From Sneathiellales bacterium (GTDB lineage Bacteria > Pseudomonadota > Alphaproteobacteria > JANQFL01): 64,000 bases of DNA. A program made the translations under genes and the position numbers. The DNA lies in NCBI GenBank assembly GCA_028277845.1, contig JANQFL010000022.1, positions 1 through 64,000 on the forward strand, in the 5' to 3' direction. Each line of letters opens with the position of its first letter. The first letter of the stretch is position 1. A model generated the notes under the pieces. The model was not told where the DNA came from, searched no databases, and saw only the letters and a program-made list of their open reading frames with translations. Shown here piece by piece: positions 1-19,363 of this stretch.

Positions 1-170
1 CCGCCGGATTTGGCGCCAAGACGCCCGTCCCTCCGGGTTTCCAAGCGGCCGCCCCCCACGGCGTCAGACGGCTTGCGCGATGCACCACATCGCGCGGCCC
101 CGTCTTCCTTGTGGATGGGCAGGCCGCTCGAGAAACAGAATGAATTCCATCTAAAGAGGAACTACTCTAA
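1..170. repeat. Palindromic interspersed element, copy 1 (cut by window edge)
   Basis: Right part of the element also found at 3616-3888 and 14651-14948. It shares the TTTGGCGCCAAG box, the stretch from AGCGGCCGCC to CAGACGGCTTG, and the terminal inverted-repeat arm with TTCCATCTAAAGAGGAAC that ends in CTCTAA. The left arm and internal hairpin lie outside the window. The reading frame that stays open in the other copies is interrupted here near its end, where a TGG codon is replaced by TGA in ACAGAATGAATTCC. The complementary-strand stop codon of the acetyltransferase (167-169) lies inside the terminal repeat. Confidence 0.85.
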
Positions 171-637
171 GCCTTTTTCGCGTACATGACAAAACCGGTG
201 TTCACCGCCACCTTGTCGTAGAGCGTCATGGCGGTCTCGTTGGTCTTATGGGTGTGCCAATAGAGCCGCGGGCTGCCCGCCCCGGTCGCTTCCGCCCGCA
301 CGGCGTCGATCAAGGCCCGGCCAACGCCCTTGCCACGCAATGACGCCTCGGTGAACAGATCCTGCAGATAACACGCCCGTTCTATGGATGTGGTGCTGCG
401 GTGATAGAGGTAATGCACCAACCCCACGATTCTGCCGTCCTGCTCGGCGACCATGCCGTACACCAGTTCGCCATCGTCGAAAAACCGGTCCCACAACGCC
501 GCCGTGACGGGTTCCGGCAAGGCCGTCGGTCCATGACGTTCGTAAAACGCGTTGTAGCCATCCCATAAGGGCCGCCACTGTTCGTAATCGGACTTCTCGA
601 TGGGCCGGACGCGGATACCGGAAGAATTTTCGCTCAT
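167..637 (-). CDS. GNAT family N-acetyltransferase
   Basis: A 156-residue acetyltransferase of the GNAT superfamily, which transfers acetyl from acetyl-CoA to an amine. The acetyl-CoA pyrophosphate loop (motif A) is visible as RGKGVGRAL after the strand YLQDLFTEASL, and the C-terminal YWHTHKTNETAMTLYDKV fits GNAT motif B (N-x-x-A-x-x-L-Y). The substrate cannot be told from sequence. The ATG at 637 is preferred over an upstream in-frame TTG at 670, because homologues normally begin close to the IRVRPIEKSDYEQW strand. The TAG stop lies at bases 2-4 of the adjoining repeat element, so the gene ends exactly where the repeat begins. The next gene on the same strand (HerA-like) ends 91 bases upstream of this start. 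Confidence 0.85.
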   Translation of the reverse strand: MSENSSGIRVRPIEKSDYEQWRPLWDGYNAFYERHGPTALPEPVTAALWDRFFDDGELVYGMVAEQDGRIVGLVHYLYHRSTTSIERACYLQDLFTEASLRGKGVGRALIDAVRAEATGAGSPRLYWHTHKTNETAMTLYDKVAVNTGFVMYAKKA

Positions 638-728
638 GAATGCGCTCGCTGGGCCAGAAACACGGGACAAAACCCGCCGAGCGTAGAGCGAACGTCATTC
701 CAAGCGCAACAAAGGAATGTCTGTCCGC

Positions 729-2330
729 CTACTCTTCTCGGTGCTGGCGGCGCCAGCGGTCGATGGTGTCCTCGACGAACGCGGCCTGGCCGCCGCAGCC
801 GTTCCAGGCCTCGGAATACGGCGCGGTGCCGCTGCGTGGGCGGTTTTCCGGCGCCAGATCATTGAATCGGAGCCGCACGGGTACCGGCACGCCCTCGCCC
901 ACGGCGATGCATTCCTGATTACGCAGGGAAGGCAGCGAGTCCAGCAAACCCATGGCCGATTCCGGCAAGGCGCCGCGGACGAACATCTGGTCGCGGTTAT
1001 TGGACATACGCAGGGCGAAGATCGTATTGCACTGTGACAGCACGTTCATGGCCAGTTCCGAAGGCCGCTGACTGACCAGGGCCAACGACACGCCGTACTT
1101 CCGGCCCTCCTTGGCAATACGGGCAATGGCCTTCTTGGTGGGCTCGAAGCCGGCGGTCTCCTCGGCGGGCGCGTAGCGGTGGGCTTCCTCGCAGACCAGC
1201 AGGATCGGCATGGCCTCGTCGCTCTTGGCCCACAGACAGAAATCGAACAGCATGCGCGCCAGGACGGACACGACGACGTCGAGCACTTCCGACGGCACGC
1301 CCGACAAATCGACGATGGTCACCGGCTTGTCGGCCACCGGGATACGCAGGATGTTGGCCAGGATCTCGTCCATGTTGTCGCGCACGACCAGGCCCGGGAA
1401 CATGAAGGCGTAGCGGGGGTCGGTACGCAGGGCTTCAAGCCGGGCCTTGATGCGCTGGTAAGGCGCCGATTTTTCCGGCTTGTCCAGCCGGCCCATGCCT
1501 TCGTCCAACAGGCGCGACAGATCGCCGAGCCGGTAGGGCGTCGGCGTGTCGACCGTGATCGCTTCGTCCTCGCCCTTGGGTCCGAGGAAGCGGATCTTGG
1601 CCTCGACGATCACTTCCTTGAGGATCGCCGCTTCGGCGTCGCGCTCGCGATCGTCCGAGCCCAGCACCTCGAGGATTTCCTCGAAGTTGAGCAGCCAGTA
1701 GGGCAGCTCCAAATTCCCGAGATGCAGTACGTTGGCCCGGTCGTTGAAAGCGCTTTCGTATTCGTTGTGGGGGTCGAGCAAGACGATGTGGCCTTGCGGG
1801 TTCTCGCCCAGGATCGACTGCAGCAGCAGCGTGACCGTGCATGACTTGCCTGCGCCAGTGGTCCCCAGCACGGCAAAGTGCTTGCCCAGCAGGTCGTTGG
1901 TCACGACATAGGCCGGCAGCGAGCGGTCCTGGTGCACCGTGCCGACGCCGACGCACGGATCGGTCGGGCGGGCATAGACCCAGGCCAGTTCATCGCGGGT
2001 GGTGGTGCACAGTTCGGACCCCAGGCCGGGATAGACCGACACGCCGCGTTCGAACGGATCGACGTCGGCGCTGCCGTTGCTCCGGTTTGCCTCGCCCAGC
2101 AACTCGACATCGGCGCGATGGCGTTCCTTGGCGTCGGTGGCCGACAGTTCGATCGCGGGATCGTCGATGTACAGGTTGTTGACCAGCCCGAATACCAGGG
2201 ACGAACCGGTGTCGACCTTGACCAGATCGCCGATCTGCAACGTGGCATCGTCGTCGTTGTCCAGGACCGCCTTGACTTGCGAACCGCCAACGGAGACGAC
2301 GCGGCCTACCCGGGTACCTTCACCGGTCAT
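729..2330 (-). CDS. HerA-like ATP-binding protein (HAS-barrel plus DUF87 ATPase)
   Basis: A 533-residue P-loop ATPase of the HerA/FtsK superfamily. The first 60 residues form a small beta-rich HAS-barrel-like domain. Walker A is GTTGAGKS at residues 156-163, and Walker B is ILLVCEEAH around 376-384, followed by a conserved basic stretch (AKEGRKYGVSLALVSQRPSEL) typical of HerA arginine-finger and sensor regions. Archaeal HerA works with NurA in DNA end resection. Bacterial versions occur in defence systems and as stand-alone proteins. No NurA or other nuclease gene is adjacent here, so the role is unknown and no defence function is claimed. The ATG at 2330 has AAGGAG seven to eight bases upstream, which fixes the start. 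It is divergent from the EamA permease. Confidence 0.85.
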   Translation of the reverse strand: MTGEGTRVGRVVSVGGSQVKAVLDNDDDATLQIGDLVKVDTGSSLVFGLVNNLYIDDPAIELSATDAKERHRADVELLGEANRSNGSADVDPFERGVSVYPGLGSELCTTTRDELAWVYARPTDPCVGVGTVHQDRSLPAYVVTNDLLGKHFAVLGTTGAGKSCTVTLLLQSILGENPQGHIVLLDPHNEYESAFNDRANVLHLGNLELPYWLLNFEEILEVLGSDDRERDAEAAILKEVIVEAKIRFLGPKGEDEAITVDTPTPYRLGDLSRLLDEGMGRLDKPEKSAPYQRIKARLEALRTDPRYAFMFPGLVVRDNMDEILANILRIPVADKPVTIVDLSGVPSEVLDVVVSVLARMLFDFCLWAKSDEAMPILLVCEEAHRYAPAEETAGFEPTKKAIARIAKEGRKYGVSLALVSQRPSELAMNVLSQCNTIFALRMSNNRDQMFVRGALPESAMGLLDSLPSLRNQECIAVGEGVPVPVRLRFNDLAPENRPRSGTAPYSEAWNGCGGQAAFVEDTIDRWRRQHREE

Positions 2331-2603
2331 CGATCACAACTCCTTACCGCCGCCGGGCGGCATGTATTGGCTTAAATTCCTCCTTAGATTTAGCGGCCAA
2401 TGGTGACCAGAACGTCAACGGGTTGCGACAATTTCCCGACAATCATTAACGCCTATAATTCAGTAACTTAGTTGACAATTCTCTGAACCGCTCGGCGGCG
2501 GTTGCCATGCGTCCCGCGGGATGGTGCCCTTCCACATCAGCAGGGACAGGGCCTGTCGCCCGGCCCCACGGCCAGTCTATAGTGGTCAACCCGTCCCCGC
2601 AGA
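2331..2603. promoter_or_regulatory. Divergent intergenic region with a TATAAT box
   Basis: This region lies between the divergent HerA-like and permease genes. A perfect TATAAT occurs at 2454-2459 in a locally AT-rich stretch and reads toward the permease. A weak TTTCCC about 16 bases upstream is the best -35 partner. A TTGACA is visible near 2474. No terminator, operator-like palindrome or small gene was seen. Confidence 0.35.
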
Positions 2604-3539
2604 ATGGAACCCGTCTTGAATCAGCCCCTCGCTTTGTTTCGACGCATTGGCAACGGTATGAGCGCCGAGAGCCGGGGAATCGTGCTGATCCTGATGTCCA
2701 CGGCGACGTTCACGGCGATGCACGCCACCATCCGCCACGTCACCGAGGGTCTGCACCCATTTGAAACCGCGTTCTTCCGCAACCTGTTCGGCCTGGTGGT
2801 TCTCGCTCCGGTATTTTTCCGTGAGGGCCTGGCACCGCTTCGTACGGAGCGCATCAAATTGCATGCCCTGCGTGGCGGCCTGCAGACCGTGGCCATGCTG
2901 TGCTTCTTTACCGCGCTGTCCATCGCCCCGCTGGCGCAAGTCACCGCGCTGAGTTTTACCGCGCCGCTGTTCGCGGCCCTTGGCGCGGCATTGATCCTGG
3001 GCGAAGTCATGCGCATCCGGCGCTGGACCGCTCTGATCATCGGCTTTGTCGGCGCCCTGATCATCATTCGTCCGGGCATCATCGAAATCGACTTCGGGAC
3101 GGTGCTCACCCTTGTGGCGTCGAGCCTCTGGGCCATCGCGATGCTGGTGATCAAGTCCCTCTCCCGCACGGATTCCAGTGTCACAGTGACCCTCTATATG
3201 GGCATCTTCCTGACGCCGTTGACATTCATCGCGGCATTGACGGTATGGACCTGGCCGACGCCGGAACAGCTGCTGTGGCTGATGCTGATCGCCACGTTCG
3301 GAACCGTGGGCCATCTGTGCATGGCCCAGGCCTTCCGGGAAGCCGATGCCTCGGTGGTTCTGCCGTTCGACTTTACCCGGCTGATCTGGGCCAGCGTCTT
3401 CGCCTTCGTCTTCTTTACCGAACTGCCCGACCTATGGACCTGGGTCGGCGGCGCGGTGATCTTCTCGGCGGCCACGTATATCGCCTACCGGGAATCGCGA
3501 CTCAAAGACAAGAAAGTCGAACCCGGCGGCAACCTGTAA
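2604..3539 (+). CDS. DMT-superfamily permease (EamA family)
   Basis: A 311-residue inner-membrane permease of the drug/metabolite transporter superfamily, with about ten hydrophobic segments in two EamA halves. The first half runs roughly from residues 24 to 150 and the second from 165 to 300. Loops contain charged motifs typical of the family, such as FETAFFRNLFGL in the first half and EADASVVLPFDFTRLIWA in the second. Substrates of such permeases include amino acids, purines and metabolites. None can be assigned here. The start is uncertain: an alternative ATG at 2658 (MSAESRG) would give 293 residues and lies nearer the first membrane segment. The gene ends 76 bases before repeat copy 2. 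Confidence 0.85.
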   Translation: MEPVLNQPLALFRRIGNGMSAESRGIVLILMSTATFTAMHATIRHVTEGLHPFETAFFRNLFGLVVLAPVFFREGLAPLRTERIKLHALRGGLQTVAMLCFFTALSIAPLAQVTALSFTAPLFAALGAALILGEVMRIRRWTALIIGFVGALIIIRPGIIEIDFGTVLTLVASSLWAIAMLVIKSLSRTDSSVTVTLYMGIFLTPLTFIAALTVWTWPTPEQLLWLMLIATFGTVGHLCMAQAFREADASVVLPFDFTRLIWASVFAFVFFTELPDLWTWVGGAVIFSAATYIAYRESRLKDKKVEPGGNL

Positions 3540-3615
3540 GCGGGCATTTCCATCCGGCGCGCGCGCCGGTTTTCGGGCACCGGTTCGGTCCCGGCTTTGC
3601 CGGTCATCCAGGCGG

Positions 3616-3888
3616 CTAGAGCAGTTCCTCTTTGGATGGAAACATTCTGACGGAGCGCATTGGCGCCAAGGCCAAGGCTGCCGTCTCGGCCATACCCGGG
3701 GTATGGCCGAGACGGCAGCCGCCGGATTTGGCGCCAATACGCCCATCCCTCCGGGTTTCCGAGCGGCCGCCCCCCACGGCGTCAGACGGCTTGCGCGATG
3801 CACCGCATCGGGCGGCCGCGTCTTCCTGGTGGATGGGCAGGCCCCTCGAGAAACAGAATGGATTCCATCTAAAGAGGAACTGCTCTAG
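3616..3888. repeat. Palindromic interspersed element, copy 2 (complete, 273 bp)
   Basis: Bounded by terminal inverted repeats. The left end begins CTAGAGCAGTTCCTCTTTGG and the right end finishes AAAGAGGAACTGCTCTAG; over 26 bases the arms differ by one base. Inside is a near-perfect hairpin with 21-base arms (3676-3696 and 3700-3720) around a 3-base loop. Two copies of the palindromic box TTGGCGCCAA flank the hairpin. A further GC-rich part carries GCGGCCGCC. A frame opens with the ATG at 3703, on the hairpin's right arm, and stays open to the TAG that forms the element end (61 codons). No transposase, and no clear target duplication beyond the CTAG ends. Confidence 0.9.
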
Positions 3889-3945
3889 AACATATTCCGC
3901 ACCAAATCAGTGAGTTATAGGGAGTGTTTACCGCACCGGAATAGA

Positions 3946-3961
3946 CTCGATTTGTATCGAG
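3946..3961 (+). promoter_or_regulatory. Small inverted repeat upstream of ppk2
   Basis: CTCGAT, a TTGT loop, then ATCGAG: a perfect six-base-arm inverted repeat about 80 bases before the ppk2 start. It lacks a following T-run, so it could be an operator or a leader hairpin. Its function is not known. The ppk2 ribosome-binding site GAGGAG is six bases before the ATG at 4043. Confidence 0.3.
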
Positions 3962-4042
3962 ATTTGAGCCGAATCATGGCGCACATGCCGGATCTGTTGC
4001 AGGTTTGCGGACCGCTCAGACACCGCGACGAGGAGATATCCG

Positions 4043-5164
4043 ATGGCCGAGGCCCCGACGACACCTGTCCGTAAATCAAAGGCCGGCCCTGCCGGCGGCA
4101 ACGGCAAGGCATCCGCCGGCGCTGGGAAGCCGGCCGGCGTGAAGGCCCCGACCAAGCCGGCGGCGCGGACCCGGAGCAAGGCGGTCGGTAAACGCCCGGC
4201 CAAACCTCAAACCGCGACGAACGACGAGGTCGATGTCACGCCGAAGTCCGCCGCGGGAGCGGAAAGCCGGCAGCTCATGCCTCATCGCAACAATCTGCGT
4301 CACGAACTGGCGATGATTCGCCATGACCCCGAGCGCTTGCGTGCGAATTTCCAAAGCGACGTCTACCCCTACCGCAACAAGATGAAGCGCGCGGTCTACG
4401 AGCGCCACAAGGCCGAACTGCAGGCCGAACTCCTCAAGGTGCAGAGCTGGGTCAAGGATACCGGCCAGAAGATCGTTGTGCTGTTCGAAGGCCGCGACGC
4501 GGCGGGCAAGGGCGGCACCATCAAACGGTTCATGGAACACCTCAACCCCCGTGGCGCCCGGGTCGTCGCCCTGGAAAAACCGTCGGAGCAGGAAAAGGGC
4601 CAATGGTATTTCCAGCGCTATGTGGAACACCTGCCGACGGAAGGCGAGATCGTGCTGTTCGACCGCTCCTGGTACAATCGCGCGGGCGTCGAGCGGGTGA
4701 TGGATTTCTGCACACCCATGGAATATCTCGAATTCATGCGCCAGTGTCCGGAGCTGGAACGCATGCTGGTCAACAGCGGCATCCGCCTGTTCAAGTTCTG
4801 GTTTTCGGTGACCCAGGATGAGCAACACCGGCGTTTCAACGCGCGCAAGGTCGATCCGCTCAAGCAGTGGAAACTCAGCCCCATCGACATGTTGTCCCTG
4901 GACAAATGGGACGATTATACGGAGGCCAAGGAAGCGATGTTCTTCTACACCGACACGGCAGACGCGCCGTGGACGGTGATCAAGTCGTCGGACAAGAAGC
5001 GGGCGCGAATCAACTGCATGCTGCACTTCCTTCACAGTCTCGATTACCCCAACAAGGACAAACACGTCGTGCATGCCCCCGACCCGCTCATCGTCGGCGG
5101 CTCCAACCATGTCATCGGCCGCGACAAACACATACTGGGGGTATCCCTGGGCGACAGGAAATAG
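4043..5164 (+). CDS. ppk2: Polyphosphate kinase 2 (PPK2) with basic N-terminal tail
   Basis: A 373-residue PPK2-family phosphotransferase, which interconverts polyphosphate and nucleoside di- or triphosphates. Walker A is GRDAAGKGG (150-158). The Walker B/lid motif LFDRSWYNR follows near 205-213. The rest (YRNKMKRAVYERHKAEL, TGQKIVVLFEG) matches the canonical single-domain PPK2 core of about 290 residues. Unusually, residues 1-75 are a low-complexity Ala/Lys/Pro/Gly tail that resembles histone H1 or AlgP-type tails and is absent from minimal PPK2 enzymes. It may bind polyphosphate or DNA (inference). The start is well supported by GAGGAG upstream. The next gene, convergent, encodes a cyanophycin-synthetase-like ligase. 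Confidence 0.92.
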   Translation: MAEAPTTPVRKSKAGPAGGNGKASAGAGKPAGVKAPTKPAARTRSKAVGKRPAKPQTATNDEVDVTPKSAAGAESRQLMPHRNNLRHELAMIRHDPERLRANFQSDVYPYRNKMKRAVYERHKAELQAELLKVQSWVKDTGQKIVVLFEGRDAAGKGGTIKRFMEHLNPRGARVVALEKPSEQEKGQWYFQRYVEHLPTEGEIVLFDRSWYNRAGVERVMDFCTPMEYLEFMRQCPELERMLVNSGIRLFKFWFSVTQDEQHRRFNARKVDPLKQWKLSPIDMLSLDKWDDYTEAKEAMFFYTDTADAPWTVIKSSDKKRARINCMLHFLHSLDYPNKDKHVVHAPDPLIVGGSNHVIGRDKHILGVSLGDRK

Positions 5165-5204
5165 GCGCCGCGCCGAGCGTTCTCCCGGCCGGCGGATAGG
5201 CGCC

Positions 5205-7367
5205 TCAGGCCTGACGACGATCGGGAAAGGCGGTGATCGCCTCCGGCGGCAATTCCAACCCCACCGCCATGGCGGCGGCGACCACCAGCGCTTTTCGTTC
5301 CTCGCTGTCCTTGGGCGAAACCGTACTAGCCATTTCATGGCTGCGTGTCTCACCCTTGTCGTATACGAGCAACGATGTCCGGCCGTTTTCGCTGGTCAGG
5401 CACACGGCGCGGCCGCCGCGGGAGACATGCTGCGATACGGCCGCACTGTCCTGCTGGCCGGACGCCAGACAAATGGCCTGGCCGCCGGTCTCCGACGCCA
5501 ATCGGAACGCCAGCGGGTCATCCGCATCCAGAACAACCATGCCTGTCGTGATCGCACAGACACGCCGCGCGAACCGCATGGCGCTGTCGCTCAAACCGGT
5601 GAAGGCGGCCACCGTGCAACGGTCGAAACCGGCACCATCGCGCACCAGTTCCTCGTTGGGCAGTTCCAACACGGCGCAGGCGGTTTTCGGATCCCGGAAG
5701 ACCATCTGGGCGCCGTCCCAGTTGGCCCGGTCGCCGTCCGCCACCGGCTCGTTTCCGACCGTTACACCGTTCCTCGAGACACAGGCGACATCGCGCACGA
5801 CATGGCCGATCATGCGGGTCAGCCAGTCCGTCGCCTGCGTGGTCGCGCCGCCGCCGCAGATTACGGCGATCGGTATGCGGCCGGTCGCACCGTTCGGAAA
5901 CAAATGATCGATGACGGGCCCGGCGACATCCCGGTCGGGATTGGCCACTTGGTGCACCCGCAGACCCGGCGACCCGTTGACCTCGCATATGGCGCCGCCG
6001 ATTTCGCGGTAGGACCGGCTGATGTCGGTCGTCAGAAAATCGACGCCGGAAATATCCGCGCCGACCACCCGTGCCGCCCGGACGGCCAGCCGCAGATTGT
6101 CGGGATGCGCCTGCTCCGTCACGTCCTCGGCGGTACCGCCTGTGGCGATGTTGGCGGTCCGGCGGAGAAACACGTCTTCTCCGTTGGCCGGAACGGTCGC
6201 GGGGCCGTATCCCTTTTCGGCCAGCATGGACAAGGCCAAATCGTCCATTTCCATGCGATTGAGTTGTTTTTCAAAGTTCACGCCACGGCGCGGATCCCGG
6301 TTGAGGACGTCAAGCAGTTGCGACACCGTGTGAACGCCATCACCGGTCACCTTGCCCGGTGTGCGCCTGGCCACGCCGATCACCCGGCCACCGACGACCA
6401 GGATGCGGTGATCGTCGCCGTCGATGTGTTTTTCGACCATGACATCGGCATGATATCGGCGCGCGGCGGTGTAAGCGGTGCGGACGTCGCCTTCAGTCCG
6501 CAGACGCAGACTGATGCCAATACCCTTGTTGTAAAAGTTCGGCTTCACGACCACGGGGTAACCGATTTGCTCCGCCACCCGTACCGCCATGTCTTCGTCA
6601 TACACGGTTTCCGGCGCGGTGACCGGCAAGCCGGCGGCTTGCAAGTGCGTAGCCGTGACGACTTTGTCGCTGGTCATCATGCCGGAGATTGTCGACGTCG
6701 TATCCGTCAGTGTCTCATGGATTCGGATGAGGTTCCTGCCGTGCCCCAGTTGTACGAACCGTTTGTAGGGCGAAATCCGAACCCAGGGAATGTTGCGTTT
6801 CTCGGCCGCACCCACCAGTGACAAGGTACTTTGGTCCAGCAAACGGGTGTGCGCCCAATCGACAAAACGGTCCAGCATTTGCCTGGCATCAGCGGTGGAG
6901 ATCTCTTCCGCGCCGTCCCTTAACGAGGACTGAGCCAACGTACGGACGATATCGACCGCGGTTCGGCCCGCGGCAAATCCCGCCTCATCATCGCGGTATC
7001 CGAAAAAAGCCACCTGTTGCTGTTCGGCACCCTTGACCAGGGCACCCCAGATCGGGTTCGGCAAACGCACCATGCGCTGCAATTCCGCCGCCGCCACGGC
7101 GACAACCAAAGCCAGCGGCAAACCGGCATCAGACTGAATGGCTTCGGACACGGTATCTGCCGTATCCGTTCCCATGGGCTGCGACGACAGGCCCGGCAGC
7201 AGCGCCATCAGATTTGCGGCAAACGAATGCCCCAGTTCTGCAGAGCGATACGCCTCAAGACCGGCCAATGCGAGTGCCACCACAATGACAGGCTCCGTCG
7301 CGAGGTGACTCGGACCGCGAAAGACGCGCACCGACCGGATGTTCATTTCAAATGACTGTGGGTTCAT
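5205..7367 (-). CDS. Cyanophycin-synthetase-like ligase with degenerate Mur-ligase half
   Basis: A 720-residue protein that follows the CphA layout. It has an N-terminal domain with RVFRGPS near residue 14, then an ATP-grasp domain (about 230-490) with VVVKPNFYNKGIGI and the metal-binding EVNGSPGLR (462-470), then a Mur-ligase-like region that starts at GRIPIAVI. In active CphA1 this last region opens with a GTNGKTTT P-loop. Here the equivalent (about 504-512) reads CGGGATTQA, with the Lys lost. The following landmarks are still recognisable (QMVFRDP, GAGFDRCTVA, LDADDPLAF, SRGGRAV), but the C terminus is shortened by about 150 residues. This resembles the CphA2 idea, one live ATP-grasp site with a dead Mur site. 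Product unproven. The ATG at 7367 is chosen; a GTG at 7565 would overlap the upstream gene by 106 bases. Confidence 0.75.
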   Translation of the reverse strand: MNPQSFEMNIRSVRVFRGPSHLATEPVIVVALALAGLEAYRSAELGHSFAANLMALLPGLSSQPMGTDTADTVSEAIQSDAGLPLALVVAVAAAELQRMVRLPNPIWGALVKGAEQQQVAFFGYRDDEAGFAAGRTAVDIVRTLAQSSLRDGAEEISTADARQMLDRFVDWAHTRLLDQSTLSLVGAAEKRNIPWVRISPYKRFVQLGHGRNLIRIHETLTDTTSTISGMMTSDKVVTATHLQAAGLPVTAPETVYDEDMAVRVAEQIGYPVVVKPNFYNKGIGISLRLRTEGDVRTAYTAARRYHADVMVEKHIDGDDHRILVVGGRVIGVARRTPGKVTGDGVHTVSQLLDVLNRDPRRGVNFEKQLNRMEMDDLALSMLAEKGYGPATVPANGEDVFLRRTANIATGGTAEDVTEQAHPDNLRLAVRAARVVGADISGVDFLTTDISRSYREIGGAICEVNGSPGLRVHQVANPDRDVAGPVIDHLFPNGATGRIPIAVICGGGATTQATDWLTRMIGHVVRDVACVSRNGVTVGNEPVADGDRANWDGAQMVFRDPKTACAVLELPNEELVRDGAGFDRCTVAAFTGLSDSAMRFARRVCAITTGMVVLDADDPLAFRLASETGGQAICLASGQQDSAAVSQHVSRGGRAVCLTSENGRTSLLVYDKGETRSHEMASTVSPKDSEERKALVVAAAMAVGLELPPEAITAFPDRRQA

Positions 7368-7459
7368 GCCAGGTTCGGAAATGAATTGCCTCTGAATAGT
7401 ATTTGCCAGCGCAGAGTATTGCACAAATGGTTGCGGGAACCTTTCGGTGAAATAGAACC

Positions 7460-8389
7460 TTACGCGCCGTCCACATGAAGCAACAGGGACGTGTTCACAA
7501 ACCGGTTGGTCGGGGTCGGAACGCCGAGTTCCTCTCCCAGCCGCACGACGGCACCGGATAGCCACGGCAGTTCAAGGCGGCGGCCTTGCCGCAGGTCAAT
7601 GGCCATGGAGGCAAACATATCGTGCGGCAGCGCGTCGACCATGGCGATCCGCGTCGACACGATGTCTTCGGGCAGTTCGATCGATTTGGCGCGCGCGACG
7701 GCAGTGGTCTCTTCCATGACTTCCCTTAGCAGTGCGCGCGTATCAGAGAGACCCCGCACCTCGCCGACCGGCCGGCGTGTCAATGCCGTCAGGGCACTGA
7801 CCCCGACGAGGAGGACGAATTTGATCCAGATATCCACCGGGATGCGGTCACTGAGATCGACCTGGATGTTCGACGTGCTCAGGCATTGTTCCAATACGCG
7901 CGCCCGGTCGGTTACACGCCCGTCCATTTCACCGAACCGAATACGGTGAAAGGGGCTCAACTTGTGAATCACCCCGGGCCGGGATACCGACACCGCAATC
8001 TCGGCCACGCCGCCCATGGTGTGCGGCCGGCCTATGATGCCGCCTAAAATGTCCTCCGACTCGACGCCGTTCTGCAAGGAAATGACCGCCGTCTCGGTGC
8101 CGATCATCGGTTTGCAGATGTCGGCCGCCGTTTCCGTATCCCACAACTTGACGCAAAACAGCACGCAGTCGACCGGGCCAACTTCGACCGGAGAGTCGGT
8201 CGCCTCCACCATGACCCTGAAATCATCCACGGGCCCTTCGACCGTCAGCCCGTTTTGACGTATGGCCGCCAGATGTGCACCGCGGGCGATGAAAGTTACC
8301 GGGTATCCCGCCTGCGCGATCCGGGCGCCGAAATAGCCGCCAACACCACCCGATCCCATGATCGCGAATGTGGGGTTCGATTCACTCAT
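7460..8389 (-). CDS. Ketopantoate reductase family protein (ApbA/PanE)
   Basis: A 309-residue NADPH-dependent 2-dehydropantoate 2-reductase-family enzyme. The Rossmann motif GSGGVGGYFG sits at residues 12-21. The family catalytic set is visible: Asn in SLQNGVES, Lys in VDIWIKFVLL and Glu in GRRLELPWLSG. Bona fide PanE makes pantoate for coenzyme A, but many alphaproteobacteria carry several paralogues of unknown substrate, so a pantothenate role is not certain. No other pantothenate gene is adjacent. It is divergent from the DmdA-like gene with a 201-base spacer, and 92 bases ahead of the cyanophycin-synthetase-like gene on the same strand. Confidence 0.82.
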   Translation of the reverse strand: MSESNPTFAIMGSGGVGGYFGARIAQAGYPVTFIARGAHLAAIRQNGLTVEGPVDDFRVMVEATDSPVEVGPVDCVLFCVKLWDTETAADICKPMIGTETAVISLQNGVESEDILGGIIGRPHTMGGVAEIAVSVSRPGVIHKLSPFHRIRFGEMDGRVTDRARVLEQCLSTSNIQVDLSDRIPVDIWIKFVLLVGVSALTALTRRPVGEVRGLSDTRALLREVMEETTAVARAKSIELPEDIVSTRIAMVDALPHDMFASMAIDLRQGRRLELPWLSGAVVRLGEELGVPTPTNRFVNTSLLLHVDGA

Positions 8390-8590
8390 GACAGCCTATC
8401 TCTCCAGCCCGTATCGTGATGGAAACAACAATAGCGGCCTCATGCATCACGGCAACTGTACACCGGTTGAAGACATCCACGATGCAAGACACCGGCAGCA
8501 GTTCGTTTTCGTGGTTTTCGTTGTCGCCTTGCGGCTATCGCGTCGGATTGACGGTTGATAATTCTTGAGTTGAACAGAAATGGGGCCGAC

Positions 8591-9694
8591 ATGTTCGAGA
8601 TCACGCCGACCACGCGCCTTCGCCGCTCACCGTTCTTCGAAGCCACCGTGGCCGAGGGCGTGAGCGGCTTCTCACCCTACAATCACATGCTCATGCCCAC
8701 CGGATACGGAGATCCGGAAGGGGAGTATTGGCGGCTGATCAACGGCGCATCCCAGTGGGACGTGGCGGTGGAGCGGCAAGTGGAATTGACAGGCCCCGAT
8801 GCCGGCCGTTTGGCCCAGATCCTGTCGCCGCGCGACCTGACGAAATGCGTGCCCGGGCAAGGCAAATACGTGGCGCTCTGCAACCATGCCGGCACGCTGA
8901 TCAACGATCCGATCCTGCTCAAACTGGATGACAACCGGTTCTGGCTCTCGATCGCCGACAGCAACATCCTGTTCTGGGCCCGGGCCATCGCCGCCGAGCG
9001 TGGCCTCAATGTCGCCGTGATCGAACCCGACGTCTCCCCCATGGCGGTCCAAGGTCCGAAAGCGGACGACGTGGTCGCCGCCGTGTTCGGCGACTGGGTC
9101 CGCGACTTGAAATTCTTCTGGTTTCGCGAGACGCAGGTCGAGGGAATCCCTGTTGCCGTCGCCCGTTCGGGCTGGTCCAAGCAGGGCGGGTTCGAAATCT
9201 ATCTGATGGACGGTTCCAAGGGCACGGCCCTTTGGAACATCGTCCGCGAAGCCGGCCGCTCCTGGGAGATCGGACCGGGCAATCCCAATCCGGTGGAGCG
9301 TATCGAAAGCGGTCTGCTCAGCTATGGCGGTGACAGCGACGACACAACCAATCCGTTCGAGGTGCGGCTCGAGCGGTACGTCGACCTGGATGTGGCCGAC
9401 GACGTGATCGGTATTCATCCGTTGCGCCGGATCCGCGACGAGGGACCGAAGCGCCACCAATTGGGCATCACACTCGATGGCGACACGCCGGGCGGCCATC
9501 ACGCCTCTTGGTACGACATTACCGTCGGCGGCCGAAAAGTGGGCGACATGACATGCGGGACCTGGTCTTACAGGCTAGGCAGGAACATCGGGTACGCCCT
9601 GATCGACCGCGCCTGCCGGCCCGGCGACAGGGTCGAGGTCCGGAAGGACGGTGAGGCCATCGGAGCGACCTTGTCCGACCTGCCGTTTCTTTGA
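8591..9694 (+). CDS. GcvT-family THF-dependent demethylase, DMSP demethylase (DmdA)-like
   Basis: A 367-residue aminomethyltransferase-fold protein. DmdA moves a methyl group from dimethylsulfoniopropionate to tetrahydrofolate. The N-terminal part (PYNHMLMPTGYG, INGASQWDVAVERQVEL) and the block LINDPILLKLDDNRFWLSIAD match the DmdA-like branch. At the place where glycine-cleavage GcvT has a conserved Asp-Asp pair, this protein has Asn-Asp, which argues against a glycine-cleavage role. The C-terminal barrel has GVxWSYRLGRNIGYALI-like spacing (TWSYRLGRNIGYALI). No gcvH or gcvP is adjacent, nor are dmdB-D. The ATG at 8591 follows GGGGCC. An upstream in-frame ATG at 8555 has no good ribosome-binding site. 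A demethylase for a different methylated osmolyte cannot be excluded. Confidence 0.65.
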   Translation: MFEITPTTRLRRSPFFEATVAEGVSGFSPYNHMLMPTGYGDPEGEYWRLINGASQWDVAVERQVELTGPDAGRLAQILSPRDLTKCVPGQGKYVALCNHAGTLINDPILLKLDDNRFWLSIADSNILFWARAIAAERGLNVAVIEPDVSPMAVQGPKADDVVAAVFGDWVRDLKFFWFRETQVEGIPVAVARSGWSKQGGFEIYLMDGSKGTALWNIVREAGRSWEIGPGNPNPVERIESGLLSYGGDSDDTTNPFEVRLERYVDLDVADDVIGIHPLRRIRDEGPKRHQLGITLDGDTPGGHHASWYDITVGGRKVGDMTCGTWSYRLGRNIGYALIDRACRPGDRVEVRKDGEAIGATLSDLPFL

Positions 9695-9738
9695 ATACCG
9701 TTCGTCCACGCGAACGGAACGACCGATGTCCGTGGCGG

Positions 9739-10536
9739 TCAGGCTGCCGGCTCGACGGCGCGGCGATAGAGATGCCAGGAGGCATGGCCCAGCACCGGCA
9801 GGATGACGAACAGACCGACCAGGCCCGACAACAAGGAAATGCCAACCAATCCGGCGATCACGGCGCACCACACGATCATCACCCGCGGATTGGCCCGGAC
9901 CACGCGCACGCTGGTGACCATGGCGGTCACGAAATCGCAGTCCCTGTCGAACAGCATGGGGAACGACGTCACCGAAAACGAAAACACCGCCAATGCAATA
10001 ACGGCCCCGACGCCGTTACCGATGACAAGCAGCATCCAGCCCGCCGGCGTCGTAAATATCTCCATCAGAAAGTTCTCCGACGACAGCACGTTGATGCCGA
10101 GAAAGCCGAAGAACAACAAGGCCGCGATGTCCATCCATATGAAGAACGAAAAGCCGGTCACCAGGGCCATCCAACCAAGGTCGCGCCGGGCGGAGCGCGA
10201 TATCAACCCGCGGACGGCACTCCAACTCAATGCTTCGTCCCGCTCCAGGCTGTAGGAGACAGCGTAGAATCCGGTGGCGATGAACGGCGCGATCAAGGCA
10301 AACCCCGCAGCCAGCGGATAGACCAGAAACGGCAGGTCGAACTGCAACAACAGCAATATCAGCAACCACCCGCCGACGGCGTAAATCCCGCCGAAGAACA
10401 GTCCGTAACTCGGCGCACGGCGGAAATCCCTGAGCCCCATGCCGACCACGTCCATCAGGTCGTCAAGCCGTACATCGCGAACGTCCGGCCACTGGCTGCG
10501 ACGTTGCGAACTGCTGTTATCGGTAAGATCCGTCAC
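9739..10536 (-). CDS. DUF2189 integral membrane protein
   Basis: A 265-residue protein of the DUF2189 family, with six or so hydrophobic segments after a polar N-terminal stretch. The family signature is seen as a leading Asp/Leu-rich helix and GLRDFRRAPSYGLFFGGIYA, followed by FVTAMVTSVRVVRANPRVM between the last membrane segments. Function is unknown in the whole family. A GTG start at 10536 is preferred because AAAGGAG lies seven bases upstream; the longer frame to 10593 has no ribosome-binding site. It is convergent with the DmdA-like gene and co-directional with the carotenoid oxygenase, 115 bases downstream of it. Confidence 0.8.
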   Translation of the reverse strand: MTDLTDNSSSQRRSQWPDVRDVRLDDLMDVVGMGLRDFRRAPSYGLFFGGIYAVGGWLLILLLLQFDLPFLVYPLAAGFALIAPFIATGFYAVSYSLERDEALSWSAVRGLISRSARRDLGWMALVTGFSFFIWMDIAALLFFGFLGINVLSSENFLMEIFTTPAGWMLLVIGNGVGAVIALAVFSFSVTSFPMLFDRDCDFVTAMVTSVRVVRANPRVMIVWCAVIAGLVGISLLSGLVGLFVILPVLGHASWHLYRRAVEPAA

Positions 10537-10651
10537 GGGACACTCCTTTGGCAACGAGGGCGATATTCTACGCCTGCCTTTGGAAATGCCCAACTACGCT
10601 GATGCAAAAAAATGACGGGCGGCATTCCGGGCCGCCGCCCGCCAATATTTC

Positions 10652-12181
10652 CTACGCGGCCACCCATGTGCCGTGGAAACTGATGGGCAGGCTGTGACCG
10701 AGCCAGGCCATTGCGGCTGGGCCTTGATCGACGGTTTCGGCATCGAATACGGCGATACCGTTGCGTCCCTTGTTGCCGTCGAAAACCTCGCACAACAACC
10801 AGCCCTGGTCGACGTTCCCACCAGGCCGGGCCGCAAACACCGGTTCGCCGACATAGTGGCGTGGACCGAAGTGGAAGCCCTTCTTGGCGCCACTTGTGCT
10901 GTCGACCCGGACGACGCCGTCATGCCACCACGCGCCCGGCCGGGACGCTGAAGCCAGATAACTGACACGGTGCCGCCTGGTCGCGCTTCGCGGGTCGATC
11001 ATGGGAAATTCGAAACTCCCCGTATCGATGACCGTCTCGTTGAGTGTCCCGCTGTCCAGACCGATCACCCAACGCCGGAAGGTACCCGGGCTCTGTCCCC
11101 TGCCGTCCCGGCCGTGCATGACCGTCGCGAACACCGCTTCGGATCCGAGAAAATGATCCGGTTCGTCATAGGCGACGAAGTCGGCGATGATCTCGCCGCC
11201 CGATTCATAGGCGTTGGCGGCATGCCACATCCAGGCGCCGGGGGCTTCGAAGATGCGCGGCTCGCCGGCCCCGTCCTTGCGGACGACCATGACCACGTTG
11301 GCCTTGTCCTTGTTCCAGGTCAGGGCCTGGGTGAAACTTTTTACACCAGCCAGGAAACCGAACGGCGAAAAGTCCGCCGCGTGCAGGTTGATGACGACAT
11401 GATGCTCCGTGGCGAAGAAGTCATGCACATAGGTCTGGTGCGGTGCCGGAACGACAAAATTGTGCTTCAGGCGCCCGTCCCGGCCGTGCACAACAATACG
11501 CAACGACATGGTGCGCCCCATCGCCGGACTGAGCAAAATCCAGTCACCGCTGACCGGGTCCAGTTTGGTGTGGGCCTTGTAGGCGACACTGTCCAACTCG
11601 GGGCCGACCTGCACCTCTCCCAGGGTATCCAGTGTCTCGGCATCGACCTGCCAGGGCAGACCGACTTCATCGAAGGCATACAACTTGCCGCCCCGCCATA
11701 CAGGCGTGACGCCGGCTTGCGATAGCATGTCTCCACCACCCAGGTTGGACAGCACCCCGCCGGGCGCCCGCGTACCCCAGGTGGCGTAGAGGAACTTGCC
11801 TGCCGCCTCTTCCTGCACGAATTTTTCCGTTCTGACGAAACGGTTGCGGAAACGCAATCCCCGGTCGTCGAACTGATAGGCCCGGATCATGCCGTCGCCG
11901 TCCAGCACATGCCCCTTGCGCACACCGTCGCGTTCGAACAGGCTTGGCCCGTTGCGGAACAGCGTGCCTCGAAGCCCTGCCGGCAAATCCCCTTCAACGC
12001 CGGCCCGTTCGTCGATTTCCCGCCTCATGCCGCGCGCCAACGGGGCAAACCAGACATCGCCGGACTGCGCGGCGGACGCCACTCTGGCCGACATCACGCC
12101 TTCGAGTGTCGGAAACGTGCCCGCAATTCCCACCATCGCCAGGCTCGCTCCCATGCCTTTGATCGCCTTACGTCTGTTCAT
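10652..12181 (-). CDS. Carotenoid oxygenase family protein with Tat-type signal
   Basis: A 509-residue non-haem iron dioxygenase of the carotenoid cleavage/lignostilbene family, which cleaves an olefinic double bond with O2. The family's Fe(II) histidines are recognisable in YKAHTKLDP, YVHDFFATEHH, MWHAANAYE and ISFHGTWVAA at the very C terminus. FRNGPSLFERD and GDGMIRAYQFDD are family blocks. The N terminus starts MNRRKAIKGMGASLAM, a twin-arginine signal followed by a hydrophobic stretch and an Ala-rich cleavage area near residue 38, so export of a folded metalloenzyme is predicted. The substrate (carotenoid, apocarotenoid or stilbene) is unknown. It is divergent from the adjacent TetR regulator, which is the likely controller. 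Confidence 0.88.
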   Translation of the reverse strand: MNRRKAIKGMGASLAMVGIAGTFPTLEGVMSARVASAAQSGDVWFAPLARGMRREIDERAGVEGDLPAGLRGTLFRNGPSLFERDGVRKGHVLDGDGMIRAYQFDDRGLRFRNRFVRTEKFVQEEAAGKFLYATWGTRAPGGVLSNLGGGDMLSQAGVTPVWRGGKLYAFDEVGLPWQVDAETLDTLGEVQVGPELDSVAYKAHTKLDPVSGDWILLSPAMGRTMSLRIVVHGRDGRLKHNFVVPAPHQTYVHDFFATEHHVVINLHAADFSPFGFLAGVKSFTQALTWNKDKANVVMVVRKDGAGEPRIFEAPGAWMWHAANAYESGGEIIADFVAYDEPDHFLGSEAVFATVMHGRDGRGQSPGTFRRWVIGLDSGTLNETVIDTGSFEFPMIDPRSATRRHRVSYLASASRPGAWWHDGVVRVDSTSGAKKGFHFGPRHYVGEPVFAARPGGNVDQGWLLCEVFDGNKGRNGIAVFDAETVDQGPAAMAWLGHSLPISFHGTWVAA

Positions 12182-12214
12182 TGCCTTTCTCCAGTGTTAT
12201 CACTGTTAACATAT

Positions 12215-12226
12215 TGACATGTGTCA
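12215..12226. promoter_or_regulatory. Operator-like inverted repeat 1, carotenoid oxygenase/TetR intergene
   Basis: TGACA-TG-TGTCA, a perfect five-base-arm palindrome inside the larger near-palindrome ATATTGACATGTGTCATAT, between the divergent genes. A TetR dimer site here would overlap the start region of both promoters. Inferred from position and symmetry only. Confidence 0.45.
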
Positions 12227-12237
12227 TATGGGAATTA

Positions 12238-12254
12238 TGTTGACACCGTCAACA
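12238..12254. promoter_or_regulatory. Operator-like inverted repeat 2, carotenoid oxygenase/TetR intergene
   Basis: TGTTGACaccGTCAACA, a perfect seven-base-arm palindrome 16 bases before the TetR start at 12270. Its half-site shares TTGACA with repeat 1, so the pair may be two sites for one dimeric repressor. Its presence also argues that the regulator starts at 12270, not at the upstream ATG at 12219. Confidence 0.5.
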
Positions 12255-12269
12255 CCTGGATTCGAACCA

Positions 12270-12890
12270 ATGGCCAGAAGAACTCGACCCGCCGGAAAAC
12301 CCGCCTATCACCACGGCGATTTGCGGACCGCGCTGCTGGATGCCGGCGAGACGTTGCTGGCCGAAAAAGGACCGGCTGCGTTGTCTTTACGCGAATTGGC
12401 ACGGACCTGCGGTGTCTCCCAGGCGGCACCGTACCGGCATTTCAAGGACCGGGACGCCATTCTCAACGCCTTGGCCATCCGGGCCTTCAAGGAATTCGGG
12501 GACGCGTTGACGGCTGCGTCCACGGGCGTAGCGGATCCCGGCAAACGACTGCAGGCACTGGGCCGGGCCTATGTGCATTACGGCCTGGCCCACCCCCACC
12601 GCCTACGGCTGATGTTCGGCACCGACGGTAAGAATCGCATGGTGGATGAACACCTCGCCGAGGTTGCGGGAGCCGGATACGGGCTGCTTGAACAAACCGT
12701 GGCGGAAATCCTGCCTCCACGGTCGAAGAAACTTCGGGCGGCTACCGTTTCCGCCTGGTCCCTCGTACACGGATTTACGGTCCTCAACCTTGACCTGCCA
12801 TCCGAGGCAATGGCGGAGAGTGTCAAGGAGCGTGACTCGTTGCTCGGCACGATCCTTGAGGAATTCACGGCTGGTCTGTCCCGTACCTGA
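12270..12890 (+). CDS. TetR/AcrR family regulator (WHG-type C-terminal domain)
   Basis: A 206-residue TetR-type repressor. The N-terminal helix-turn-helix is clear (AYHHGDLRTALLDAG, then LSLRELARTCGVSQAAPYRHFKDRDAIL, residues about 11-65). The AYHHGDLR opening and the short ligand domain with YVHYGLAHPHRLRLMFG place it in the TetR_C WHG group, whose ligands are mostly unknown. It is divergent from the carotenoid oxygenase with two palindromes between them, so autoregulation and control of that gene are likely. The choline sulfatase lies 234 bases downstream and could also be under its control, but the usual choline-responsive BetI has a different C-terminal domain. Confidence 0.88.
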   Translation: MARRTRPAGKPAYHHGDLRTALLDAGETLLAEKGPAALSLRELARTCGVSQAAPYRHFKDRDAILNALAIRAFKEFGDALTAASTGVADPGKRLQALGRAYVHYGLAHPHRLRLMFGTDGKNRMVDEHLAEVAGAGYGLLEQTVAEILPPRSKKLRAATVSAWSLVHGFTVLNLDLPSEAMAESVKERDSLLGTILEEFTAGLSRT

Positions 12891-13124
12891 CGGCTTCCCA
12901 ACCATTGCCGGTTGTGAACGCTATGTCGTATGCGTAGCGGCTATTGCATGAGCAATACTCTCTGCGAATCGGCTCCGCGGCGAGAATAGAATCCTCCGGA
13001 AAACACCAGGCATCATCACTTGCCAAGACATGGCGTTGTTGGAACATTCGTCACGCGTCGTCACGTGTAGAAATTACCGTACATCCTGGACCAACCACAA
13101 ATTCCTCGCGGAATGGACAGCGTC

Positions 13125-14642
13125 ATGACTCAGAAGCCGAATTTCCTGATCTTCATGGTCGATCAACTTGCCGGAACACTGTTTGCCGACGGACCGGCGG
13201 ATTTTCTGCATGCGCCAGCCTTGCGGCGGCTCAGCAACGAGGCGGTCAATTTCACCAATGCGTATTGCGCGAGCCCATTGTGCACGCCGGCACGGGCGTC
13301 GTTCATGACCGGCCAGTTGCCTTCGCGCAACGGGGTGTATGACAACGCGGCGGAGCTGGCCGCCGACATTCCGACGTTCGCTCATTATCTGCGGCAGGCC
13401 GGGTACCGCACCATGCTCAGCGGCAAGATGCATTTTGTCGGCGCCGACCAGTTGCACGGCTTCGAGGAGCGCCTGACCACCGACATCTACCCGGCGGACT
13501 TCGGCTGGACGCCCGATTGGACACGGCCGGACGAGCGGATCGACTGGTGGTATCACAACATGTCATCCGTCACGAACGCGGGCGTTGCCGCGACGACCAA
13601 CCAGCTCGAATTCGACGACGACGTCGCCTACCAGGCCAAAACCAGGCTCTACAGACTCGCGCGCGAGGATCGGCAGACACCGTTTTGCCTCACGGTCAGC
13701 TTCACCCATCCCCACGACCCGTATGTGGCCCGTCAACGCTTCTGGGATCTGTACGACGACGAAGTTCCGATGCCCCGAACGGGCGAACTGTCCGCGGATC
13801 AACACGATGCCCACAGCCGGCGCCTGCTGGCCGTGTCCGACCGGGCGAACTACACTATTTCCGACGCGCATATCCGCCGGGCGCGGCGTGCCTATTTTGC
13901 CAACGTGTCCTATCTGGACAGCCTGATCGCGGAAATTCTCGAAACTCTCAAGGCGGGCAACTTGGACGAAAACACCGTCATCGTCTTTTGTTCCGATCAC
14001 GGCGACATGTTGGGCGAGCGCGGACTTTGGTACAAGATGAGCTTCCATGAACCGTCCATCCGCGTGCCCCTGTTCGTGCATGCGCCCGGCCGATTCAGGC
14101 CGAGCCGCGTCGACGAGCCGGTCTCCACCCTCGACGTCCTGCCGACCCTGGTCGAGCTTGCCGGCGGCGACGCCGACGACCTCGCCGATGATATCGACGG
14201 CGCCAGTCTGGTACCCCTGTTGAACGGCCGGCACCAGCCCAACCGCACGGTTCTGGCCGAATTTGCGGCGGAAGGGGCGGTCGATCCGCTGATCATGATG
14301 CGCGACGGACGCTACAAATATGTTTTCGGCAATGCCGACGGCGCGCAATTGTTCGACCTCTCCGACGATCCCCAGGAAATGCGCGATCTGGCCGGGCTCG
14401 ACGGGCACACGGCGACCGTGGCCGGGTTCGCGGATGCCGCTGCCGCACGCTGGGATCTGGCGAAATTCGAGGCCGACGTCCTGGCCAGCCAGCGGCGCCG
14501 CCGGCTTGTTTACGACGCCTTGCGCCGGGGCCGCTACCAGCCATGGGATTTCCAGCCCCACGACCCCGCGTCGGAACGCTATATGCGTAATCATCTCGAT
14601 TTGAACGAGCTGGAGGCGCGTTCCCGTTACCCGCGGGAATGA
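13125..14642 (+). CDS. betC: Choline-sulfatase
   Basis: A 505-residue arylsulfatase-superfamily enzyme that hydrolyses choline-O-sulfate to choline and sulfate. The formylglycine-forming motif is CTPAR with the modifiable Cys at residue 53, inside SPLCTPARASFMTGQLPSR. Metal and substrate ligands are visible as MVDQ near 11-14, FCSDHGDMLGERGLWYK and the later HEPSIRVPL. The BetC hallmark stretch around residues 105-130 (GKMHFVGADQLHGFEERL, then TDIYPADFGWTPDW) is essentially complete. Formylglycine maturation would need a sulfatase-modifying enzyme elsewhere. No betA, betB or betI is adjacent. An ATG at 13113 is also possible but has no spaced ribosome-binding site. It ends eight bases before repeat copy 3. 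Confidence 0.9.
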   Translation: MTQKPNFLIFMVDQLAGTLFADGPADFLHAPALRRLSNEAVNFTNAYCASPLCTPARASFMTGQLPSRNGVYDNAAELAADIPTFAHYLRQAGYRTMLSGKMHFVGADQLHGFEERLTTDIYPADFGWTPDWTRPDERIDWWYHNMSSVTNAGVAATTNQLEFDDDVAYQAKTRLYRLAREDRQTPFCLTVSFTHPHDPYVARQRFWDLYDDEVPMPRTGELSADQHDAHSRRLLAVSDRANYTISDAHIRRARRAYFANVSYLDSLIAEILETLKAGNLDENTVIVFCSDHGDMLGERGLWYKMSFHEPSIRVPLFVHAPGRFRPSRVDEPVSTLDVLPTLVELAGGDADDLADDIDGASLVPLLNGRHQPNRTVLAEFAAEGAVDPLIMMRDGRYKYVFGNADGAQLFDLSDDPQEMRDLAGLDGHTATVAGFADAAAARWDLAKFEADVLASQRRRRLVYDALRRGRYQPWDFQPHDPASERYMRNHLDLNELEARSRYPRE

Positions 14643-14650
14643 ATCGCGCC

Positions 14651-14948
14651 TTAGAGCATTTCCTCCTTAGATGGAAGCATTCTGACGGAGCGTATTGGCG
14701 CCAAGGCCAAGGCTGGTGGTGACGGCCATACCGGGGGTATGGCCGAGACGGCAGCCGCCGGATTTGGCGCCAAGACGCCCGTCCCACAAAAGCTCAATGG
14801 GGGTTTCCGAGCGGCCGCCCCCCACGGCGTGAGACGGCTTGCGCGATGCCCGGCATCGCGCGGCCCCGTCTTCCTGGTGGCCATGTGCGTTTCTTGGCAG
14901 GCCGCTCGAGAAACAGAATGGATTCCATCTAAGGGAGGCACGCTCTAA
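14651..14948. repeat. Palindromic interspersed element, copy 3 (complete, 298 bp)
   Basis: Bounded by TTAGAGC and GCTCTAA with imperfect 26-base inverted arms that share TTAGATGGAA. It is 25 bases longer than copy 2. There are two insertions of 12 bases each (after CCCGTCCC, and in the GTGGATGGGC region, here GTGGCCATGTGCG) plus one extra base in the left arm of the internal hairpin. Both 12-base insertions keep the internal frame that starts at 14739 open to the terminal TAA. The hairpin left arm has several mismatches compared with copy 2. The element lies between the convergent choline sulfatase and histidine kinase, and supplies the kinase's stop codon. Confidence 0.9.
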
Positions 14949-18886: not shown

Positions 18887-18926
18887 ACTCGGCCTCCGCA
18901 AATCCTACCGGTCGCCGGAACAGTTG

Positions 18927-19026
18927 TTGTCCATCCCGTTTACCATCAAACCAGTTTCAGTCCCGGATTGTCCATAACGGCAAATAGGAACATGTTGTCC
19001 AATTCGCGACCGTACCGTCTGTCCAT
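18927..19026. promoter_or_regulatory. Four TGTCCA repeats upstream of the histidine kinase
   Basis: TTGTCCAT at 18927-18934 and 18968-18975, TTGTCCAA at 18995-19002, and CTGTCCAT at 19019-19026, all in the same orientation and spaced 41, 27 and 24 bases. On the coding strand of the kinase they read ATGGACAA. They occupy the kinase leader/promoter region and could be activator half-sites. The rest of 18887-19226 shows no gene. Confidence 0.3.
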
Positions 19027-19226
19027 GAGCGGGTTTTGACCGCTCCCGCACGGAAAGCTGTTTCGCCTGGGATTTGGACGGGAAAACTCTAGCGAAAATG
19101 TGTTAACCGAAGCCTGCGAACGCGTCCCGCGCCCGGCCTTCCAATGAATTGCTGCAACGCAAAAGAACAGTCAGTCATTCTGACGCGCCGGTGAAATATT
19201 TCGTCCGACGCCCCCTTCCCGCACGA

Positions 19227-19259
19227 ATGATTTGCGGAATACAAATCCGCTGTAATCAT
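19227..19259. promoter_or_regulatory. Long nested inverted repeat upstream of leucine dehydrogenase
   Basis: The outer arms ATGATT (19227-19232) and AATCAT (19254-19259) enclose the inner arms GCGGA (19234-19238) and TCCGC (19246-19250) around ATACAAA. It lies about 105 bases before the leucine dehydrogenase start in an otherwise AT-rich, gene-free leader. An operator for a dimeric regulator of amino-acid catabolism is plausible; no regulator gene is adjacent. Confidence 0.4.
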
Positions 19260-19363
19260 CGGTCTTTTTCTTCAACTCTTGTTTAGTTCATTGATTCTCA
19301 ACGCTTTTTCCACAAACTACTAGGGTAGATACAAGTATTCTTTTGGAAACGCCAAGGTCAATC

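Follow-up and report, generated by a model that had tools for sequence, protein, structure and literature searches.

An alphaproteobacterial cyanophycin synthetase-like protein with a retained ATP-grasp site and a lost Mur site, and the inversely damaged paralog that may be its partner

A contig of a Sneathiellales bacterium carries a CphA-type gene, P0001, whose product appears sound in its ATP-grasp (G) half and has lost the P-loop of its Mur ligase (M) half. Does such a protein work alone, and on what substrate, or is it one part of a larger enzyme? We analysed the 64,000-nucleotide stretch of DNA that holds the gene (the window, to which all positions at this locus refer), the rest of the genome, and CphA-like proteins from other genomes. 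A first-pass annotation made from the sequence of the window had likened the protein to CphA2, in a host that is indeed not a cyanobacterium (Alphaproteobacteria), and had proposed a substrate other than cyanophycin.

The N terminus of P0001 can be aligned with that of CphA1 from Met8 onward (Table 1). The protein matches the NCBIfam cyanophycin synthetase models NF010623 (E=2.7e-165; 552 bits, curated cut-off 877) and TIGR02068 (E=1e-146; 490 bits, curated cut-off 850) across nearly all of their N-terminal 700 positions; the scores against both CphA1 models fall far short of the cut-offs, and P0001 does not pass as a family member. By Pfam, P0001 has the CphA N domain and an ATP-grasp domain, with no match to Mur_ligase_M or Mur_ligase_C. 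The C-terminal lid has truly been deleted: the convergent polyphosphate kinase gene ends so close to the P0001 stop codon that no space is left for a lid hidden by a frameshift.

Table 1. Features of the P0001 locus (window positions; residues in P0001 numbering)
Feature	Position	Strand	Remarks
Polyphosphate kinase 2 (PPK2) gene	4043..5164	+	Convergent; end 40 nt from P0001 stop
CphA-type gene P0001	5205..7367	-	720 aa open frame; 713 aa if the start is Met8 (window 7346)
Mur M core remnant, about residues 498-720	5208..5876	-	Catalytic residues gone, lid deleted; confident fold in model
Destroyed Mur P-loop ICGGGATTQA, residues 503-512	5832..5861	-	
G domain (ATP-grasp), about residues 176-497	5877..6842	-	Conserved K235, K275, R321, R335, N406, D443, E462, N464, R470
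G-domain phosphate loop NFYNKGI, residues 277-283	6519..6539	-	K281 = TeCphA1 H267; I283 = TeCphA1 R269
N domain, about residues 8-173	6849..7346	-	Pfam PF18921, 32.8 bits
Ketopantoate-reductase (ApbA/PanE) gene	7460..8389	-	Upstream, same strand, 92 nt from P0001; putative functional link

No Rfam elements were found in window positions 1-20000, and there was no defence-system match. A ~270 nt repeat is interspersed between genes and occurs three times within the first 15 kb (1-169, 3617-3887 and 14652-14880); its pieces are 92-95% identical, and the frames running across it look like false ORFs. Two further stretches (27697-28429 and 45544-46276) are paralogous, in register for ~700 nt with pieces 72-83% identical; they probably represent ATP-grasp genes of biotin-carboxylase type belonging to two carboxylases.

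The TeCphA1 and SuCphA1 papers (PMC9427784, PMC9262961) supplied the catalytic positions, which we mapped onto an alignment containing TeCphA1; the ATP-grasp part of this alignment also took in two solved CphA2 proteins as output by the structure search. The G site retains TeCphA1 K220, K261, R309, R323, N394, D431, E450, N452 and R458, and is substituted at four positions (E215M, H267K, R269I and S396A). Among the retained residues, in P0001 numbering, are the ATP lysines (K235 and K275), the Mg ligands D443 and E462, R321, which binds the carboxylate, and three residues that bind aspartate (R335, N406 and R470). Apart from the four substitutions, then, the ATP-grasp half does keep its key motifs as annotated, the careful alignment showing that these residues hold, and the domain is predicted to be catalytically competent. 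The N domain, as the residue table shows, lacks the endo-cyanophycinase motif C-x19-HxxEH.

The M site has fared differently from the G site. In TeCphA1 numbering it shows K499T, T522R and R561N with D585 and H586 lost, so that only E558 and T500 are left of the features of an active site. Both the destroyed P-loop and the short C terminus seen in the first pass are borne out: beyond the P-loop Lys column P0001 has only 211 residues, where full-length proteins have 380-433, which means that the Mlid is gone. An AlphaFold2 model (41 sequences; mean pLDDT 86, pTM 0.82) has a confident M core. Foldseek ranks CphA1 first against it (E 1e-59 to 1e-54) and CphA2 next (4e-39). An intact alternative nucleotide site in the Mur half, which might have offset the loss of the P-loop, is not what emerges: the predicted fold is that of CphA1, and the nucleotide-binding residues are absent from the sequence.

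CphA1 (AbCphA1 7lgm, TmCphA1 7lgn, SuCphA1 7lg5 and TeCphA1 7wac) is thus the closest known system in fold (E 1.3e-59) and also in sequence (E 1.3e-124), and shares with P0001 the N-G-M order, the G catalytic residues and Arg458. P0001 differs in the loss of the M site and lid, in E215M and H267K, in an N domain without HxxEH, and in a genome without cyanophycinase. CphA2, which lacks P-loopM and Mlid (PMC9427784), shares the module pattern of P0001, with a single live G site, and the two solved examples (Gloeothece 7ta5 and Stanieria 8fxh/8fxi) also share Lys267 and Ile269 of the G loop and the absence of the N-domain motif (PMC9262961). The likeness to CphA2 therefore stands for the modules. 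It does not extend to kinship: CphA2 is cyanobacterial, the free tree places P0001 in a separate lineage, and a joint clade is disfavoured (AU p=0.033, moderately strong only). With Arg458 kept as well, membership of P0001 in CphA2 was rejected. P0001 might instead have converged on the CphA2 reaction, polymerising a ready-made dipeptide as cyanobacterial CphA2 does with beta-Asp-Arg; the module losses, identical to those of CphA2, and the shared G-loop residues would fit. We consider this improbable, since P0001 keeps (as Arg470) Arg458, a ligand of the aspartate alpha-carboxylate that is replaced by Phe or Tyr in both solved CphA2s, and has Met (Met230) at position 215, where both have Asp. 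Its fold is nearer CphA1, and the genome offers no cyanophycinase as a supplier of dipeptide.

Position 215 also bears on the product. In TeCphA1, E215 anchors the side chain of the Arg in the final unit (PMC9427784, PMC9262961); because this residue is Met in P0001, the side group is probably not Arg. The first pass had seen no adjacent cyanophycinase or dipeptidase gene, and the whole genome likewise has none that passes: there was no match to cyanophycinase TIGR02069, Peptidase_S51 or the IaaA family PF01112, and only weak amidohydrolase matches, far short of the cut-off, to IadA TIGR01975. Degradation genes are common, not universal, in genomes with CphA1. Their loss together with that of E215 speaks for either a side group other than Arg or a product other than stored cyanophycin, and the polymer is probably not cyanophycin, in agreement with the substrate proposed earlier. 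Residue 215 varies (Met, Trp, Ser and others) across the subfamily, complete members included, which suggests that the whole subfamily labelled cyanophycin synthetase may make something else.

A whole-genome search found three CphA-type genes, the other two of which the first pass had missed. P0005 (contig C8, 878 aa) is a complete protein whose loop, GTDGKTTTT, is intact. P0004 (contig C93, 809 aa) carries the inverse damage: it retains the P-loop (GTNGKSTTT), T522, E558, R561 and the DH pair, and its G site is altered by K220E, K261L, R309A, a deletion across N394-S396, D431G, E450D and R458A. Pfam content follows suit, with N and ATP-grasp in P0001, N, Mur_M and Mur_C in P0004 (no ATP-grasp match) and all of these in P0005. 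Percent identities to five Pelagibius-type proteins (N/G/Mcore) are 26/51/32 for P0001, 27/28/50 for P0004 and 29/51/51 for P0005. Since each live domain matches P0005 in identity and the dead domains have drifted, P0001 and P0004 have each kept constraint on the domain lost by the other.

Our preferred reading, to which we give a probability of about 0.45, is that P0001 supplies the ATP-grasp half, and a paralog the other half, of one CphA-like synthetase. P0001 and P0004, with or without P0005, would form a hetero-oligomer of the CphA1 type; P0001 would extend the chain by phosphorylating its C-terminal carboxylate and joining on an Asp-like amino acid, and P0004 would then ligate the side group by its Mur step. 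The dead M core of P0001 may be retained as a scaffold, because in the CphA1 tetramer, which has inter-protomer G contacts, the M core touches the N domain and three G cores (PMC9427784). Mixing of sites between protomers is physically possible, given that engineered SuCphA1 heterodimers with inactive and active sites in different protomers assembled and were active, although it was the N site that was shifted between protomers in the combinations described, rather than G relative to M (PMC9262961). Several findings count against a split pair: P0001 and P0004 are unlinked (contigs C123 and C93), the complete P0005 makes a pair unnecessary for the P0005 product, and a clade of P0001 with P0005 is not rejected (p=0.10). 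The placement of the N domain and N+G remnant of P0004, and the genomes with M-dead genes and no M-live CphA (both described below), weigh on the same side.

The complete paralog and the drift of the N and M parts of P0001 could also be read to mean that P0001 merely modulates P0005 without catalysis, or is slowly heading for loss. This we regard as very improbable: its frame is intact across 720 codons, its fold is confident, its G catalytic residues are intact, and its G domain matches that of P0005 in conservation.

Trees place the two inversely damaged proteins beside the same relatives. In N+G trees P0001 is sister to the Pelagibius-type CphA-like proteins (L064, L065 and kin; 99/97 and 99/92; with more rows, 86/87 and 92/92), and in M-domain trees P0004 is likewise sister to this clade (99/97, 98/96 and 99/98). 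These proteins share with P0001 the loss of E215, H267 and the N-site and, unlike it, are bifunctional with M site and lid intact, encoded by single or tandem complete genes: Pelagibius litoralis carries a lone bifunctional gene, and in the relatives G388 and G391 complete genes stand in tandem pairs. Around Pelagibius-type CphA genes no conserved neighbour is connected with cyanophycin. In a further genome (G448, L183 8349-13102) a complete CphA-like gene is followed in tandem by an M-dead one, their frames overlapping at the same bases, and the two are probably translationally coupled.

The simplest reading of these trees would be a single duplication followed by reciprocal loss in P0001 and P0004. 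The N domain of P0004 is unplaced in the N-domain tree and so gives no confirmation of an origin in common with P0001; the N+G remnant of P0004 groups with the G-dead protein of genome G504 (98/97), on long branches. An origin of P0004 as a copy of P0005 was rejected (P0004+P0005 clade, p=0.006).

Mur-only paralogs occur at other cphA loci. At canonical loci (L143 8832-10568, L044, L045, L046 and others) a 'Mur ligase family protein' regularly follows cphA, and its M domain branches inside the CphA M-domain family. Such a protein (e.g. Ruegeria WP_152460471.1) is comparable to P0004 in lying beside CphA as a Mur-only paralog; unlike P0004, it has no CphA N domain by Pfam, and its M domain forms a clade of its own.

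Proteins with a dead M site are present across many alphaproteobacterial families, and each has lost the lid at about the same place, as in CphA2 (PMC9427784). One origin for all of those in Alphaproteobacteria was rejected (AU p=7.7e-5), and at least seven changes of M state are needed on the tree; M sites were lost several times independently. A single M-dead clade of P0001 with L083 is neither supported nor rejected (p=0.107), and their grouping in the M tree, which drew a long-branch warning, was left out of use. A G080 protein (L047 1256-3814) has the P-loop GTSGKTTT and has lost T522, E558, DH and the lid, and looks like an intermediate in M-site loss. In genome G246 two CphA-like genes (L041 5780-7636 and 7677-10085) adjoin end to end, one on each strand; one is M-dead, and the other apparently retains neither site. 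A literature search, with subscription journals mostly outside its coverage, found no paper describing M-dead or split CphA in proteobacteria.

The inverse condition, G-dead and M-live, was found in four genomes, namely the present one (P0004), G078, G504 and G636. Three of the four also carry a G-live, M-dead protein, so that inverse pairs exist in two other alphaproteobacteria (G078 and G636). The two genes of the G078 pair are adjacent on the same strand, and their N domains are sisters (96/82) with the complete paralog as outgroup. No partner of the G504 gene was found in 20 of that genome's contigs.

Other genomes point to M-dead proteins that may act without a pair. In six with M-dead genes (G183, G207, G166, G263, G038 and G246) no M-live CphA was found at E<=1e-60, the number of candidates scored in each being small; some M-dead enzymes thus seem to act independently. 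P0001 may likewise be an autonomous single-site ligase that joins an amino acid or peptide to another acceptor, giving a conjugate or a homopolymer; most of its M-dead relatives in Alphaproteobacteria would have to act in this manner, and the loss of Glu215, His267 and the N-site would fit such a change of substrate. A homolog on a Microvirga ossetica plasmid (L142 8755-11769), in which N, ATP-grasp and a dead Mur part are fused to a PGA_cap (CapA) domain, adjoins ABC/HlyD export genes and genes with a lysyltransferase domain; the system possibly makes an exported amino-acid polymer, and the fusion and its export neighbours speak for autonomy. Still, we hold it unlikely that P0001 acts on its own, in view of the exact inverse paralog in the same genome and the conservation of both live domains. 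Nor do the neighbours of P0001 and other M-dead genes indicate one common pathway, the neighbourhoods of M-dead relatives having no conserved neighbour beyond genus-level synteny (e.g. a chromate-transporter-like gene).

Taken beyond this genome, the split-enzyme reading becomes a wider and more doubtful proposal: that in Alphaproteobacteria a bifunctional CphA-like synthetase has been divided repeatedly, through gene duplication and the reciprocal loss of sites, and that the resulting pairs assemble as hetero-oligomers whose product is a side-chain-branched polyamide distinct from cyanophycin. CphA1 is the model enzyme for alternation between two active sites that lie far apart. If the proposal is true, a natural set with one site per paralog, encountered repeatedly, would amount to the inactive-site heterodimer experiment done by nature, and the need for coupling of CphA sites in cis would become directly testable. 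The repeated loss of M site and lid, as in CphA2, means that CphA proteins with a single site are not confined to cyanobacteria. The primer pocket is altered as well, which points to a polymer or conjugate outside the known ones, currently annotated simply as the work of cyanophycin synthetase.
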